Assembly: GCA_031265725.1 (NCBI GenBank)
Contig: JAISCH010000140.1
Span: forward strand, 1-5,509
Length of the DNA: 5,509 nt
Direction of reading: 5' to 3'
From: Propionibacteriaceae bacterium
Lineage (GTDB): Bacteria > Actinomycetota > Actinomycetes > Propionibacteriales > Propionibacteriaceae
This document shows, one piece after another, positions 303 through 5,509 of this stretch. How positions within the stretch are numbered: position 1 is the stretch's first letter; every line of letters begins with the position of its first letter. The notes under the pieces are model-generated. The model had not been told where the DNA came from and did no database searches. It saw nothing but the letters and a program-made list of their open reading frames with translations. The position numbers and the translations under genes were made by a program.

Positions 303-368
303 CGGCGCAAGGGAGAGCAATGGCGCTGTTTCGACCAAATGGCAAAGCGCACGGATCGCCCCTCGTTG

Positions 369-375
369 AAAGGTG
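369..375 (+). promoter_or_regulatory. Ribosome binding site that decides the hyaA start
   Basis: AAAGGTG ends 5 nt before ATG 381, a good Shine-Dalgarno match and spacing. The earlier in-frame ATG at 339 has no SD at usable distance: the nearest purine-rich block, GGGAGAG at 311-317, is about 21 nt away. That block is instead placed for an out-of-frame ATG at 320. This favours 381 as the small-subunit start. Confidence 0.5.
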
Positions 376-380
376 TTCGC

Positions 381-1637
381 ATGTCGTATCAGATGGACGG
401 CTGGCAGGAGCCGACGCTGGGTGAGAACCTGGCCAGGGCGGGAGTCTCGCGCAAAGCGTTCCTCGCCTATTGCGGCTCGTTGGCGGCGATCTTCGCAGTC
501 GGGACGGGCACGCCGAAGGCGGCGGCCGCCGTTCCCGCCGAAGTGGTGGCTGACAAACTCGGCGCAGTGACCAAGCCGAATGTGGTCTGGTTGCAGTTGC
601 AGGAATGCACTGGCTGCATGGAGAGCACGCTGCGTTCCGGTGGCACCACCGTCGAGGAAGTGGTGCTCAATCTGCTCTCGGTGAACTACAACGAATTAGT
701 CATGGCCGCCGCTGGCGACGCGGCCAACAAAGCCTTGGACGACACCAACGCCGAGCCGCACATCCTGGTGGTGAACGGCTCGATCCCGACCAAAGACGGC
801 GGTATCTACTGCACCATCGGCGGCAAGTCCGCCGAGGAAGTGCTGCGGGAGTCCGCCGCGAACGCCTCCGCGATCCTGGCCGTCGGGGCCTGTGCGGTGT
901 GGGGATCGGTGCAGGCTTCCAATCCGAATCCGACCGGGGCGGTGGGAGTTGACCAGATCATCCGGGACAAGCCGGTCATCAATGTCGCCGGTTGTCCCCC
1001 CATCGGCGAGGTGATCACCGCGACCGTAGCTTACCTGTTGACCCATGACGACCTGCCGAAGACCGACGCCGAGGGGCGTCCGCTCTTCGCCTACGACCAA
1101 CGTATCCACGACTCCTGCCCGCGTCGGGCGCACTTCGACGCCGGACAGTACGTCCGCACTTTCGACGACGAGGGCGCGCGCAACGGCTGGTGCCTGTACG
1201 AAGTGGGTTGCAAAGGGCCGAGCACTTTCAGCGCCTGCCCGATAATCCAGTGGAATCTGCACACCAGTTGGCCGATCGGCGCTGGGCATCCCTGCATCGG
1301 CTGCACCGAGAAGGATTTCTTCGACAGATTCACCCCCTTCTATCAAGCCCTGCCCAATGTCACCGGGCTGGGAATAGAGGGCACCGCCGAGAAGATCGGC
1401 TGGGGCCTGGTCGGCGCCACCGTCGCCGGAGTGGGCCTTCATGCCGGTATCACAGCGATCAGACACGCCGCCAGCCGCAAGCCCAGTCATGACGGCGAGC
1501 CGTTGCAGGCGTTCGGGGATTCCGGGCCGGTGCCGCTGCCCGTCCCAAAGCGCAGTTATCAAGCGGTGGATACGGATGGCTCAGCGGTTGAGCAACCCAC
1601 CCCGGACTCAGCCGACCCCAGTGGAGAGGCGGAATAG
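381..1637 (+). CDS. hyaA: [NiFe] hydrogenase small subunit, group 1, membrane-anchored
   Basis: This is the electron-transfer subunit of a respiratory hydrogenase, 418 residues from ATG 381 (432 if ATG 339 is used). Visible parts, numbered from 381: a Tat-like signal with SRKAFL at 23-28 and a hydrophobic stretch to about 50; proximal [4Fe-4S] ligands C76, C79, C171 and C205; distal cluster ligands H243, C246, C271 and C277; medial 3Fe-4S ligands C286, C305 and C308, with Pro298 where a fourth Cys would make 4Fe-4S; and a membrane helix at about 338-360 that anchors the protein beside the cytochrome. G78 and S176 occupy the positions of the two extra cysteines of O2-tolerant enzymes, so this is the standard type. 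Two oddities are RK instead of RR in the Tat motif and a 58-residue Pro-rich, acidic tail after the anchor. hyaB starts 3 nt after the stop. The family call is secure; the subgroup is not resolved. Confidence 0.96.
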   Translation: MSYQMDGWQEPTLGENLARAGVSRKAFLAYCGSLAAIFAVGTGTPKAAAAVPAEVVADKLGAVTKPNVVWLQLQECTGCMESTLRSGGTTVEEVVLNLLSVNYNELVMAAAGDAANKALDDTNAEPHILVVNGSIPTKDGGIYCTIGGKSAEEVLRESAANASAILAVGACAVWGSVQASNPNPTGAVGVDQIIRDKPVINVAGCPPIGEVITATVAYLLTHDDLPKTDAEGRPLFAYDQRIHDSCPRRAHFDAGQYVRTFDDEGARNGWCLYEVGCKGPSTFSACPIIQWNLHTSWPIGAGHPCIGCTEKDFFDRFTPFYQALPNVTGLGIEGTAEKIGWGLVGATVAGVGLHAGITAIRHAASRKPSHDGEPLQAFGDSGPVPLPVPKRSYQAVDTDGSAVEQPTPDSADPSGEAE

Positions 1638-1640
1638 ACC

Positions 1641-3380
1641 ATGGCCGAGCGAGTAGTCATCGATCCCATCACCCGCATCGAGGGTCATCTGCGGATAGAA
1701 CTGGAGACGGACGGCAAGAAGATATCGAAAGCCTGGAGTGAGACCACTCAATTCCGTGGCTTGGAGACCATCCTGCTCGGGCGCGATCCGCGCGACGCCT
1801 GGGCTTTCACCCAACGTATCTGCGGAGTGTGCACCTCCGTCCACGCCATCGCGTCGATCACCGCCGTCGAGAACGCTATCGGCTCCAACCCGCCAGAACA
1901 GGCCCGGCTCATCCGTGACATGGTGATGGGCTCCCAGGAGATCCAGGACCATGTGATCCACTTCTACCATCTGCACGCGCTGGATTTCGTCAACGTCCCC
2001 GCAGCGGCGAACGCCGACCCGGCCAAGGCGGTCTCCTTCGCCAGAGCCATCGGCTCCACCTGGAAAGGCAACACCTTGGAGCGGATGACGGAAGTCCGTG
2101 ACACTGTCAAGGGCATTCTCGATTCCGGGCAGTTGAGCGTCTTCACTGGCGGATACTGGGACCATCCCGACTACCGGCTGCCGCCGGAGGCCAATTTGAT
2201 GGCGGTGGCACACTATTTGGACGCGCTCGAATTCCAGCGTTCGATGATCCGGATCGGTACGGTGTTCGGCGGCAAGAATCCGCACCCGAACTTCTTGGTC
2301 GGCGGGATGGCCTGCACTATCGACCCCAGCCACTCCGAGTCGATCAACCAGGTGCAGATCGACCAGATCGGGCAGTGGATAGCGGAAACCACTGAATTCG
2401 TGAAGACCTGCTATCTGCCGGATGCGCTGGCAATCGTCGGGGTCTACAAGGACTATTTCGATATCGGCGCGGCCCAGCCGAATTTCTTGGCGGTCGGCAT
2501 GGCCGGAGCCACCTATGCCGGCGATCCGGCCACCGCCCGGATAACGTCGGCCCACACCGAGGTGAAGCCGGGGGTATTGCTGGATGGCGACTACAGCACC
2601 GTCCATCCCTTCGATCCGCGCAAAGTGTCCGAATGGGTCACTTCGGCCTGGTACTCCTACCCGGATGGCGATATCGGCCTCACCCCGGACAAGGGCGAGA
2701 CCAACGTGGCCTACACCGGCCCCAAGCCGCCCTACACCTGGCTGGGCGACAACGAGAAGTACACCTGGTGCAAAGCGCCGCGTTACGACGGCAAGGTGGT
2801 GCAGGTCGGGCCGGTGGCCCGGGTCCTGTTGGCCTACGCCAGCGGGCACCAGCGCACCAAGGAGATCGTGGACGGCGCGGCGGCGACGCTCGGCATCAGC
2901 CTCAGCCAATTGAATTCGACTGCCGGACGCACGTTGGCCCGCGCCGTGGAGTGCGTCACCTCGACCGAGGCCTTGGCCGAGACCACTTTCCCCACCTTTG
3001 TGAAGAAGATCAAGGGTGGCGACATCAACGTCTTCGACGCAACCCGGTGGGAACCGGACTCCTGGCCCAAGCAGGCCTCCGGCTACTCCTTCGTAGAGGT
3101 CGCCCGAGGCAATCTGAGCCATTGGGTGAGCATCGAAGACGGCAAGATCAGCCGTTATCAAGCGGTGGTGCCGACCACTTGGCTGGCCGGTGGCCGTGAC
3201 GCCGGGGGCCAGCAGGGTCCGTACGAGGAATCACTGGCCGGTGACCAGAAGCATCCGCTGGTCGACGCGGCGCAGCCGTTGGAACCCTTGCGCACCATCC
3301 ACTCCTTCGATCCGTGCATGTCCTGCGCGGTACACGTCCTCGATCCGGATGGCCAAGAGCTCTTGGCGGTGTTGTCATGA
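1641..3380 (+). CDS. hyaB: [NiFe] hydrogenase large subunit, group 1
   Basis: The catalytic subunit splits H2 at the Ni-Fe(CN)2CO centre and passes electrons to HyaA; it should be exported together with HyaA. It has 579 residues, normal for the family. The N-terminal motif is RICGVCTSVH (59-68), giving ligands C61 and C64. The C-terminal motif is DPCMSCAVH (557-565), giving C559 and C562. After His565 there are 14 more residues (VLDPDGQELLAVLS), the tail removed by the maturation protease once nickel is in place; hyaD lies two genes downstream. The start is ATG 1641, with a purine-rich SD (GGAGAGGCGG, 1623-1632) inside the end of hyaA. The stop overlaps the hyaC start in ATGA (3377-3380). All four cysteine ligands are present and nothing looks broken. 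Confidence 0.97.
   Translation: MAERVVIDPITRIEGHLRIELETDGKKISKAWSETTQFRGLETILLGRDPRDAWAFTQRICGVCTSVHAIASITAVENAIGSNPPEQARLIRDMVMGSQEIQDHVIHFYHLHALDFVNVPAAANADPAKAVSFARAIGSTWKGNTLERMTEVRDTVKGILDSGQLSVFTGGYWDHPDYRLPPEANLMAVAHYLDALEFQRSMIRIGTVFGGKNPHPNFLVGGMACTIDPSHSESINQVQIDQIGQWIAETTEFVKTCYLPDALAIVGVYKDYFDIGAAQPNFLAVGMAGATYAGDPATARITSAHTEVKPGVLLDGDYSTVHPFDPRKVSEWVTSAWYSYPDGDIGLTPDKGETNVAYTGPKPPYTWLGDNEKYTWCKAPRYDGKVVQVGPVARVLLAYASGHQRTKEIVDGAAATLGISLSQLNSTAGRTLARAVECVTSTEALAETTFPTFVKKIKGGDINVFDATRWEPDSWPKQASGYSFVEVARGNLSHWVSIEDGKISRYQAVVPTTWLAGGRDAGGQQGPYEESLAGDQKHPLVDAAQPLEPLRTIHSFDPCMSCAVHVLDPDGQELLAVLS
3352..3367. repeat. 16-bp perfect palindrome at the hyaB-hyaC junction
   Basis: GCCAAGAGCTCTTGGC reads the same on both strands. 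It lies in the codons for the cleaved HyaB tail, 9 nt before the hyaC ATG. In RNA it could fold as a 6-bp stem with an AGCU loop, taking up the first bases of the hyaC SD (GGCGGTG, 3365-3371). A role in setting hyaC translation is possible but unproven; it may simply reflect codon choice. Confidence 0.3.
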
Positions 3381-4597
3381 CCGCCGCCAGCTCGTCCCAG
3401 ACTCATTCGCCCTCCCGGACGCTGGTGGCCGACGGGGCTTTCACGCTGGGCAGGCTGAGCGAGGGACGAGTGCTGGCGCTGGCGGCGGCATGTCCCAGCG
3501 GCAGCGCCGATCCGGTCGACCTGGCGACGGTGGCGGCGCTGCGGATCGAGCGCCCGGACCTTCCAGCGGCGGAAGTGGACGACGGCGATTTCGACCCGGC
3601 CAGCCCGGATCGCATATTCAGCCTGGCCCGGGTGAGGGCGTTCCCGCTGGACGACGGCCAGGACGCCGACTTGGTGGTGATGCGCGGCAATCTGACCAGC
3701 GTGTTGAAACGGGTGCGGATCAGCCACGAGGACCGGAGCATCGCGCGCCGGAACGCCGATTGGGTGTCCCGGCGCGGCTGGCGTCCGCTGGCAGTGGCCA
3801 TCGCCAAAGTTGGAGAGCACGATCAGGTCGGGGAATTCAGCCTGGAGGGCTTCGTCAGCATCGGTGACGGGAGCGAGCGCGGCTCGGCCAGCAACGGCCC
3901 CGCCGACTGGGCGCGGGTGAATGTCTGGTCGGTGTCGCTGCGCTACCAGCACTGGATCAATGTGGCGATGGTTTTCATCCTCAGTTGCACCGGCTATTTC
4001 ATCATGGACCCATTCTTCGGGCCGACCGCCCACACTGGGGAGGAGACCGGCTTTTTGATGGGCTGGATGCGGCTGATCCATTTCTCCGCTGGTTTCATCT
4101 GGGTGGTGATCGGGGCGACCAGGATCCTGTCGGCGTTCACCTCTCGTGACCGGCAGTTGCGCTGGACACAGATGTGGCCGTTGAAACACAAACAAGATCT
4201 GCGCAATCTCGGCAGAGTGGTCCAACACTATGCCCTCATCAAAGACGACTCGCCGCTATTCCTGGCACACAATCCGTTGCAGCAACTCACGTACACCTCG
4301 CTGTATCTGGCCTGCGGCCTGCAGATGACGACCGGGTTCATCCTTTACGGGCTCTATCACCAGGACAATCCCTTCTGGGCTTTCATCTCGACTCCGGCGC
4401 ACTGGTTCGGCATTCCTGGGATCCGGCTGTTCCACGCCATGATGATGTTCGGCCTGTGGGCATTCGTGATAATGCACGTCTATCTGGCTGTCCGCGCCGA
4501 CTCGCTGGAACGTCATGGCGGCCTGTCCTCGATGATCAACGGCGGCGTGTGGCTGCATCGCGGCGCGAAGCCGGTGGACGCTCCCGAGATCGGATGA
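3377..4597 (+). CDS. hyaC: Hydrogenase b-type cytochrome with N-terminal P-type-ATPase N-domain-like fusion
   Basis: The protein has 406 residues and two parts. Residues ~179-400 are the HyaC/HupC-type di-haem cytochrome b that takes electrons from the small subunit into the membrane. Four helices lie at about 191-210, 228-251, 304-325 and 350-374, with candidate haem ligands H192, H235, H353 and H367. Usual HyaC proteins are only ~220-240 residues. Residues ~17-165 are extra, soluble, and resemble the nucleotide-binding domain of P-type ATPases (closest by eye to the plasma-membrane H+-ATPase type). Matching blocks are VLALAAACPSGSADPVDLA (32-50), FPLDD (89-93), VVMRGNLTSVLKRV (100-113, at the KGAP position), WVSRRGWRPLAVA (129-141) and FSLEGFVSIGD (154-164). 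VADGAFTLG (17-25) looks like a decayed DKTGTLT. The phosphorylation Asp, TGD motif and pump helices are absent, so it cannot be a pump; a nucleotide-sensing or structural role is inference. The start is ATG 3377, overlapping the hyaB stop, with SD GGCGGTG 5 nt upstream. Confidence 0.93.
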   Translation: MTAASSSQTHSPSRTLVADGAFTLGRLSEGRVLALAAACPSGSADPVDLATVAALRIERPDLPAAEVDDGDFDPASPDRIFSLARVRAFPLDDGQDADLVVMRGNLTSVLKRVRISHEDRSIARRNADWVSRRGWRPLAVAIAKVGEHDQVGEFSLEGFVSIGDGSERGSASNGPADWARVNVWSVSLRYQHWINVAMVFILSCTGYFIMDPFFGPTAHTGEETGFLMGWMRLIHFSAGFIWVVIGATRILSAFTSRDRQLRWTQMWPLKHKQDLRNLGRVVQHYALIKDDSPLFLAHNPLQQLTYTSLYLACGLQMTTGFILYGLYHQDNPFWAFISTPAHWFGIPGIRLFHAMMMFGLWAFVIMHVYLAVRADSLERHGGLSSMINGGVWLHRGAKPVDAPEIG

Positions 4598-5246: not shown

Positions 5247-5319
5247 CTAACCTTCCGGCTTGCCCGTCGCCGAGTCCTCCAGGTCCAAGTCGGCAAAAGT
5301 CACTTCGAATTCCCGGCCC
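5211..5319. repeat. Imperfect direct repeat, 37 bp, period 72 bp
   Basis: The units are 5211-5247 and 5283-5319 with five mismatches; both end in GAATTCCCGGCCC. The second unit lies inside hypA and the first covers its stop and downstream bases. The period is a multiple of three, so the hypA reading frame is kept across the duplication. Confidence 0.75.
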
Positions 5320-5509
5320 CGGACCAACTCGCCAGCGGGGGTGCCGCAAACCGGACAGGTGAGCGCGTAGAACTCGTCTATCGCCTGCTCCGCCGCGCAA
5401 CCAGGACACCAGACCGCTGCGGCGACGATCTCCAATTCCAGCCGGGCACCCTGCAATCTGGTACCGGCGACGGCTATCGTCCAAGCCCCCTCCAAGGCAT
5501 CCGGGGATG
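5247..5509 (-). CDS. hypA: Hydrogenase nickel incorporation protein HypA, 5' end missing
   Basis: This is the C-terminal ~87 residues of HypA; the beginning lies beyond the right edge. HypA is a small cytoplasmic protein that works with HypB to deliver nickel to the hydrogenase large subunit. The visible sequence enters as SPDALEGAWTIAVAGTRLQG, followed by ARLELEI, which matches the end of the family's nickel-binding domain. The zinc loop follows with two CxxC pairs: CPGC (codons at 5408-5397) and CPVC (5357-5346). The tail GREFEVTFADLDLED is the usual last strand. The frame is open to the window end and the TTG at 5495 is internal, not a start. The gene ends at TAG 5249-5247, convergent with hyaD and 104 bp from its stop, so it belongs to a separate transcript, probably a hyp cluster to the right. 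Confidence 0.9.
   Translation of the reverse strand, partial: SPDALEGAWTIAVAGTRLQGARLELEIVAAAVWCPGCAAEQAIDEFYALTCPVCGTPAGELVRGREFEVTFADLDLEDSATGKPEG

Follow-up and report, generated by a model that had tools for sequence, protein, structure and literature searches.

The HyaC protein encoded in the window, the 5,509-base stretch of Propionibacteriaceae DNA analysed here, carries a P-type ATPase nucleotide-binding (N) domain fused to a hydrogenase b-type cytochrome, as confirmed by profile comparison together with the predicted fold. The initial annotation had proposed this fusion, and two of the checks that it had suggested, a profile search and a structure prediction on the extension, match the P-type ATPase N domain. 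We propose, at a probability of about 0.45, that the domain is a cytoplasmic ligand-sensing regulatory module whose remodelled pocket may accept a phosphate-bearing ligand.

Gene Organization

The window is one entire contig (G000:C127). Pfam and NCBIfam models identify the genes hyaA, hyaB, hyaC and hyaD, and the C-terminal part of hypA on the opposite strand. The genes and the parts of HyaC are as follows.

339..1637, + strand: hyaA, hydrogenase small subunit; may start later, at 381
1641..3380, + strand: hyaB, hydrogenase large subunit (Pfam/NCBIfam)
3377..4597, + strand: hyaC, 406 aa, hydrogenase b-type cytochrome preceded by a fused P-type ATPase N domain
3416..3874, + strand: N domain core, residues 14–166
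3875..3922, + strand: linker, residues 167–182, of low model confidence in the predicted structure
3923..4543, + strand: cytochrome b domain, residues 183–389, with four predicted membrane helices
4594..5142, + strand: hyaD, hydrogenase maturation protease (Pfam/NCBIfam)
5247..5495, − strand: hypA, C-terminal part, whose frame leaves the window (Pfam)

The hyaC gene lies directly 3′ of hyaA-hyaB, the operon place of a HyaC cytochrome, and its start overlaps the hyaB stop (ATGA). On the minus strand, hypA points towards the operon (5247–5509). At loci L020 and L021, hypA and hypB apparently precede hyaA and share its strand, as judged from open reading frames read by eye. A second, shorter large-subunit-like protein is encoded 3′ of hyaD at three loci (L017:8269-9465, L020:8285-9535 and L021:8127-9251); hydrogenase large-subunit models score far under their cut-offs there, and we take the protein to resemble HupK.

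Identity of the Two Domains

Residues 183–389 are, by sequence, an ordinary hydrogenase cytochrome b. TIGR02125 scores 130 bits on this region against a cut-off of 121.5, and PF01292 is the sole Pfam model above cut-off in the window's HyaC. Four histidines, H192, H235, H353 and H367, are invariant in the family and fall within predicted helices; presumably they are the putative heme ligands. Against the solved E. coli HyaC (4gd3_A), the fused-family profile gives a match of E 2.2e-30. Since this match begins only at position 179, the approximately 180 leading residues of HyaC are extra.

The profile of the extension scores 96.2% against ATPase N domains in hhalign, and 86.1% without self-selected rows. 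The match holds against ATPases chosen independently of the domain's own profile, shuffle controls score far under it, and the predicted structure of the extension has the N-domain fold. The nearest type is that of the proton pumps (IIIA), which agrees with the Pma1-like domain that had been named initially; one of the five motif matches to Pma1 listed at that time was misplaced. When 394 genomes of the class were searched in reverse with the domain profile, eight candidates being scored in most genomes, eight genes besides that of the window came up, seven of them P-type ATPases (one match, L103, judged from part of its alignment). Another of the eight, L101, is an 808-aa open frame that matches the N-domain profile with E 3.9e-4 and lacks DKTGT.

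Other searches give fainter signals. The window protein alone yields weak matches (E 0.038), and one-sequence matches to IRAK4 (E 0.22 or worse) were judged to be chance. Scanned whole, the window's HyaC, nine relatives and a Corynebacterium protein gave no Pfam match to the extension, and a Pfam scan of 17 family members gave just unrelated weak matches for it. Against PDB sequences, the family profile produced 12 matches with E up to 10, of which seven are P-type ATPases (best E 0.046) and none is Pma1. The best of these lies in another register, with DVVVMRGDL opposite HMA4 775–820, well beyond the N domain, and the same register appears with TIGR01525 in three of the 17 members. This placement was set aside because hhalign, MAFFT and the fold all put the stretch at KGA..RVLAVA. 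Compared with 17 individual ATPase N domains, hhalign gave 0.1 to 90.9%; the seven above 60% had all been found with the domain's own profile, and for the remaining ten the values were 0.1 to 30.5%. The N-domain assignment therefore rests on the joint profile and on the fold. No source pump can be named, as PF00122 has no match in the genome to which the window belongs, the completeness of which is 59.7%.

Distribution and Selection

Fifteen genomes among 96 relatives, the window's included, encode a fused HyaC, each without stops. Within the family (198 genomes), HyaC scores above cut-off in 27, and the domain is present in all 27 fetched loci, that of the window included, contrary to the absence from close relatives that the initial annotation had named as a refutation. 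These 27 genomes hold 28 matches above cut-off, the second copy in G217 lying outside the 27 loci. Eight more family genomes have weaker cytochrome matches, and the three that were fetched (L064–L066) lack the domain. When 396 genomes were sampled across the phylum, 97 gave a match; the best 29 loci from these (11 of them above cut-off) all lack the domain. E. coli HyaC has no N domain either, in keeping with the earlier statement that known HyaC/HupC cytochromes are without one. Searching 5.8 billion proteins for the proposed homologues of about 400 residues returned 14, 4 and 10 proteins in three runs, amounting to 27 different ones, all of 389–421 aa and with PF01292; two of them are labelled as Bifidobacteriaceae MAGs. 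Beyond Propionibacteriaceae, the fused protein is found in Corynebacterium (L021; P0019).

One branch of the cytochrome tree (SH-aLRT 97) splits 54 fused rows from 28 plain rows. The tree was built by a quick method without L064, L083 and identical domains, and its plain branches are long; it is compatible with a single origin of the fusion but does not prove it.

The domain is under purifying selection and is kept in one reading frame. Its dN/dS does not exceed 0.47 in any of ten pairs, and the three closest of these have values of 0.03–0.10. The start reads (A/G)TGA (ATGA or GTGA) at 17 of 17 loci, a count that is support rather than proof, as the starts were picked by script. A resemblance arising by chance, or an extension created by a wrong start site or an assembly error, could be argued from the weak matches of the window protein alone and from the window being a single contig of an incomplete genome. 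However, the same architecture occurs free of stops in 14 other genomes and in the 27 database proteins. Chance is rejected by the profile, shuffle and fold tests, and the artefact by the relatives' genomes, the dN/dS values (below 0.5 in 10/10 pairs) and the start overlap. Both are already refuted, with a negligible probability left to them.

The Predicted Remodelled Pocket

Pocket positions were read from six alignments, obtained with three MAFFT modes on two sequence sets. The residue counts derive from a pattern that missed L010, L012, L038, L039 and L059, after which 71 rows were reduced to the 51 that differ from one another in their last 300 residues. Residue roles in pumps, other than those of the Na,K-ATPase and KdpB sites, are taken here as general background. 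The aligned positions are listed below.

3509..3520, + strand: D45-P46-V47-D48, opposite D-P-I-D of the proton pump L099
3596..3616, + strand: P74 to I80, with P74-A75 in place of the pump P-F
3683..3688, + strand: R103-G104, for K-G of KGA, each in 51/51
3782..3784, + strand: R136 (51/51), where the pump motif RVLAVA has its invariant R

The pump P-F pairs with P74-A75 in all six alignments, and hhalign also sets A75 opposite the pump Phe; position 75 is Ala in 50 of the 51 fused sequences. Again in 6/6, R103-G104 stand opposite the K-G of KGA, R136 and A141 opposite the R and the A of RVLAVA, and G158 opposite a G further along. D45, P74, R103, G104, R136, A141 and G158 are invariant in all 51 sequences, and 50 of them have Asp or Glu at position 48. 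At position 80, a Lys in the pump, 49 of 51 have Arg or Lys and the window has Ile (3614–3616). An HMMER alignment with L098 differs, placing F72 rather than A75 opposite the pump Phe by way of a three-residue gap; position 72 is Phe in 22/51.

One report names Phe475, Lys501 and Glu446 among the ATP-docking residues of Na,K-ATPase (PMC5354106), and the proposed site of KdpB is described in another as comprising Phe377, Ser384 and Lys395 (PMC6255902). By alignment, the fused proteins appear to lack the two marks of a nucleotide binder, the adenine-stacking Phe (Ala in 50/51) and the KGA lysine (Arg in 51/51). With Ala in place of Phe, the adenine stacking of pumps has probably gone, while the invariance of R103, G104, R136 and D45 suggests that a charged pocket is kept. 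Thus, the nucleotide-sensing role put forward initially stands in part: the invariant charged residues agree with it, whereas the exchanges of Phe and Lys speak against it. It is possible that the domain binds a changed ligand. Alternatively, the invariant residues could serve to hold the fold or a partner rather than a ligand.

Predicted Membrane Topology

The charges of the cytochrome loops (K+R vs D+E) are 0 vs 3 in loop 1, 8 vs 4 in loop 2 and 0 vs 1 in loop 3, from which both ends of HyaC are predicted to lie inside. The HyaA leader contains RR at five of six loci (L016, L017, L019, L020 and L021) and RK (SRKAFL) in the window (381–560); the NCBIfam Tat model matched HyaA of L021 and not that of the window or L017. 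Since these leaders are twin-arginine-like, the catalytic dimer is likely exported. With the ends of HyaC inside, the N domain would be cytoplasmic, next to the electron outlet and across the membrane from the small subunit.

Proposed Function

Pumps work by transferring phosphate from ATP onto an Asp in their P domain. Neither DKTGT nor a P domain is present in the 406-aa HyaC, which is thus not a whole pump, and ATP hydrolysis by the pump route is impossible. As this chemistry cannot run, any effect of the N domain would come from binding alone. We propose that the domain, predicted to lie on the cytoplasmic side of the membrane and beside the electron outlet of HyaC, may bind a phosphate-bearing ligand in its remodelled pocket and would tune the passage of electrons from H2 into the quinone pool. 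More speculatively, and rather unlikely in this full form, a proton-pump N domain may have been recruited to gate, from the cytosol, the electron outlet of a respiratory uptake hydrogenase, sensing nucleotide, pyrophosphate or polyphosphate through a pocket rebuilt by the exchanges of Phe to Ala and Lys to Arg, so that H2 oxidation would answer directly to the phosphate-energy state.

The main rival to the cytoplasmic sensor is a domain that binds no ligand and acts as a cytoplasmic docking or assembly module, for example by tethering the hydrogenase to a respiratory partner or by aiding HyaC insertion. We regard this as a serious contender of somewhat lower probability. The missing adenine-stacking Phe fits it well, as does the domain dN/dS, which exceeds that of the cytochrome in 8/10 pairs; both also count against a ligand sensor, as do the exchange of the pump Lys for Arg, the Ile at position 80 of the window's HyaC and the pTM of 0.50 for the placing of the N domain on the cytochrome in the predicted structure. 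Conversely, the pump pocket or core positions that are invariant in 51/51, among them R103, G104, R136, D45 and P74, are more than a scaffold would need, and no partner gene is confined to fused-hyaC operons, in a comparison of five long loci only. We favour the sensor, the remodelled pocket of which would take an anion or a nucleotide.

Pump-like binding of ATP or ADP, tying H2 oxidation to energy charge as the initial annotation proposed, seems improbable. In its favour, the fold is retained, most of the aligned pocket positions are unchanged or changed conservatively, and the HMMER alignment offers F72 as a substitute for the pump Phe. However, A75 takes this place in all six multiple alignments and in hhalign, even F72 is a Phe in under half of the sequences, and the KGA lysine is replaced throughout.

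If the sensor reading is true, a pump-less N domain that selection maintains on a hydrogenase cytochrome would represent a new regulation of H2 oxidation at the entry to the quinone pool, with the ligand-binding module of a pump reused as a sensor. The domain of about 170 residues can be made alone, so its ligand and effect are directly testable.

Comparison with Known Systems

The initial annotation knew of no description of this architecture, and none of the N domain-HyaC fusion was found in the open full-text literature, a scope that leaves out most subscription papers and does not prove absence. In KdpB, the Phe and Lys of the proposed site, as given in the report cited above (PMC6255902), correspond to Ala and Arg in HyaC, KdpB itself being outside the alignment. 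With the N domains of three P1B heavy-metal ATPases, the HyaC profile match spans 44 columns only. The IIIA proton pumps (Pma1; TIGR01647; the bacterial L099, 1050 bits) differ from HyaC in having the P and A domains, the pump membrane part and DKTGT; their PF is PA in HyaC and their KGA is RG(D/N). Unlike the 406-aa HyaC of the window, the E. coli protein has 235 residues and consists of the cytochrome without the N domain. The two are nevertheless alike in the HupC-type cytochrome b domain (TIGR02125, PF01292; 4gd3 chain A) and in their operon place after hyaB.
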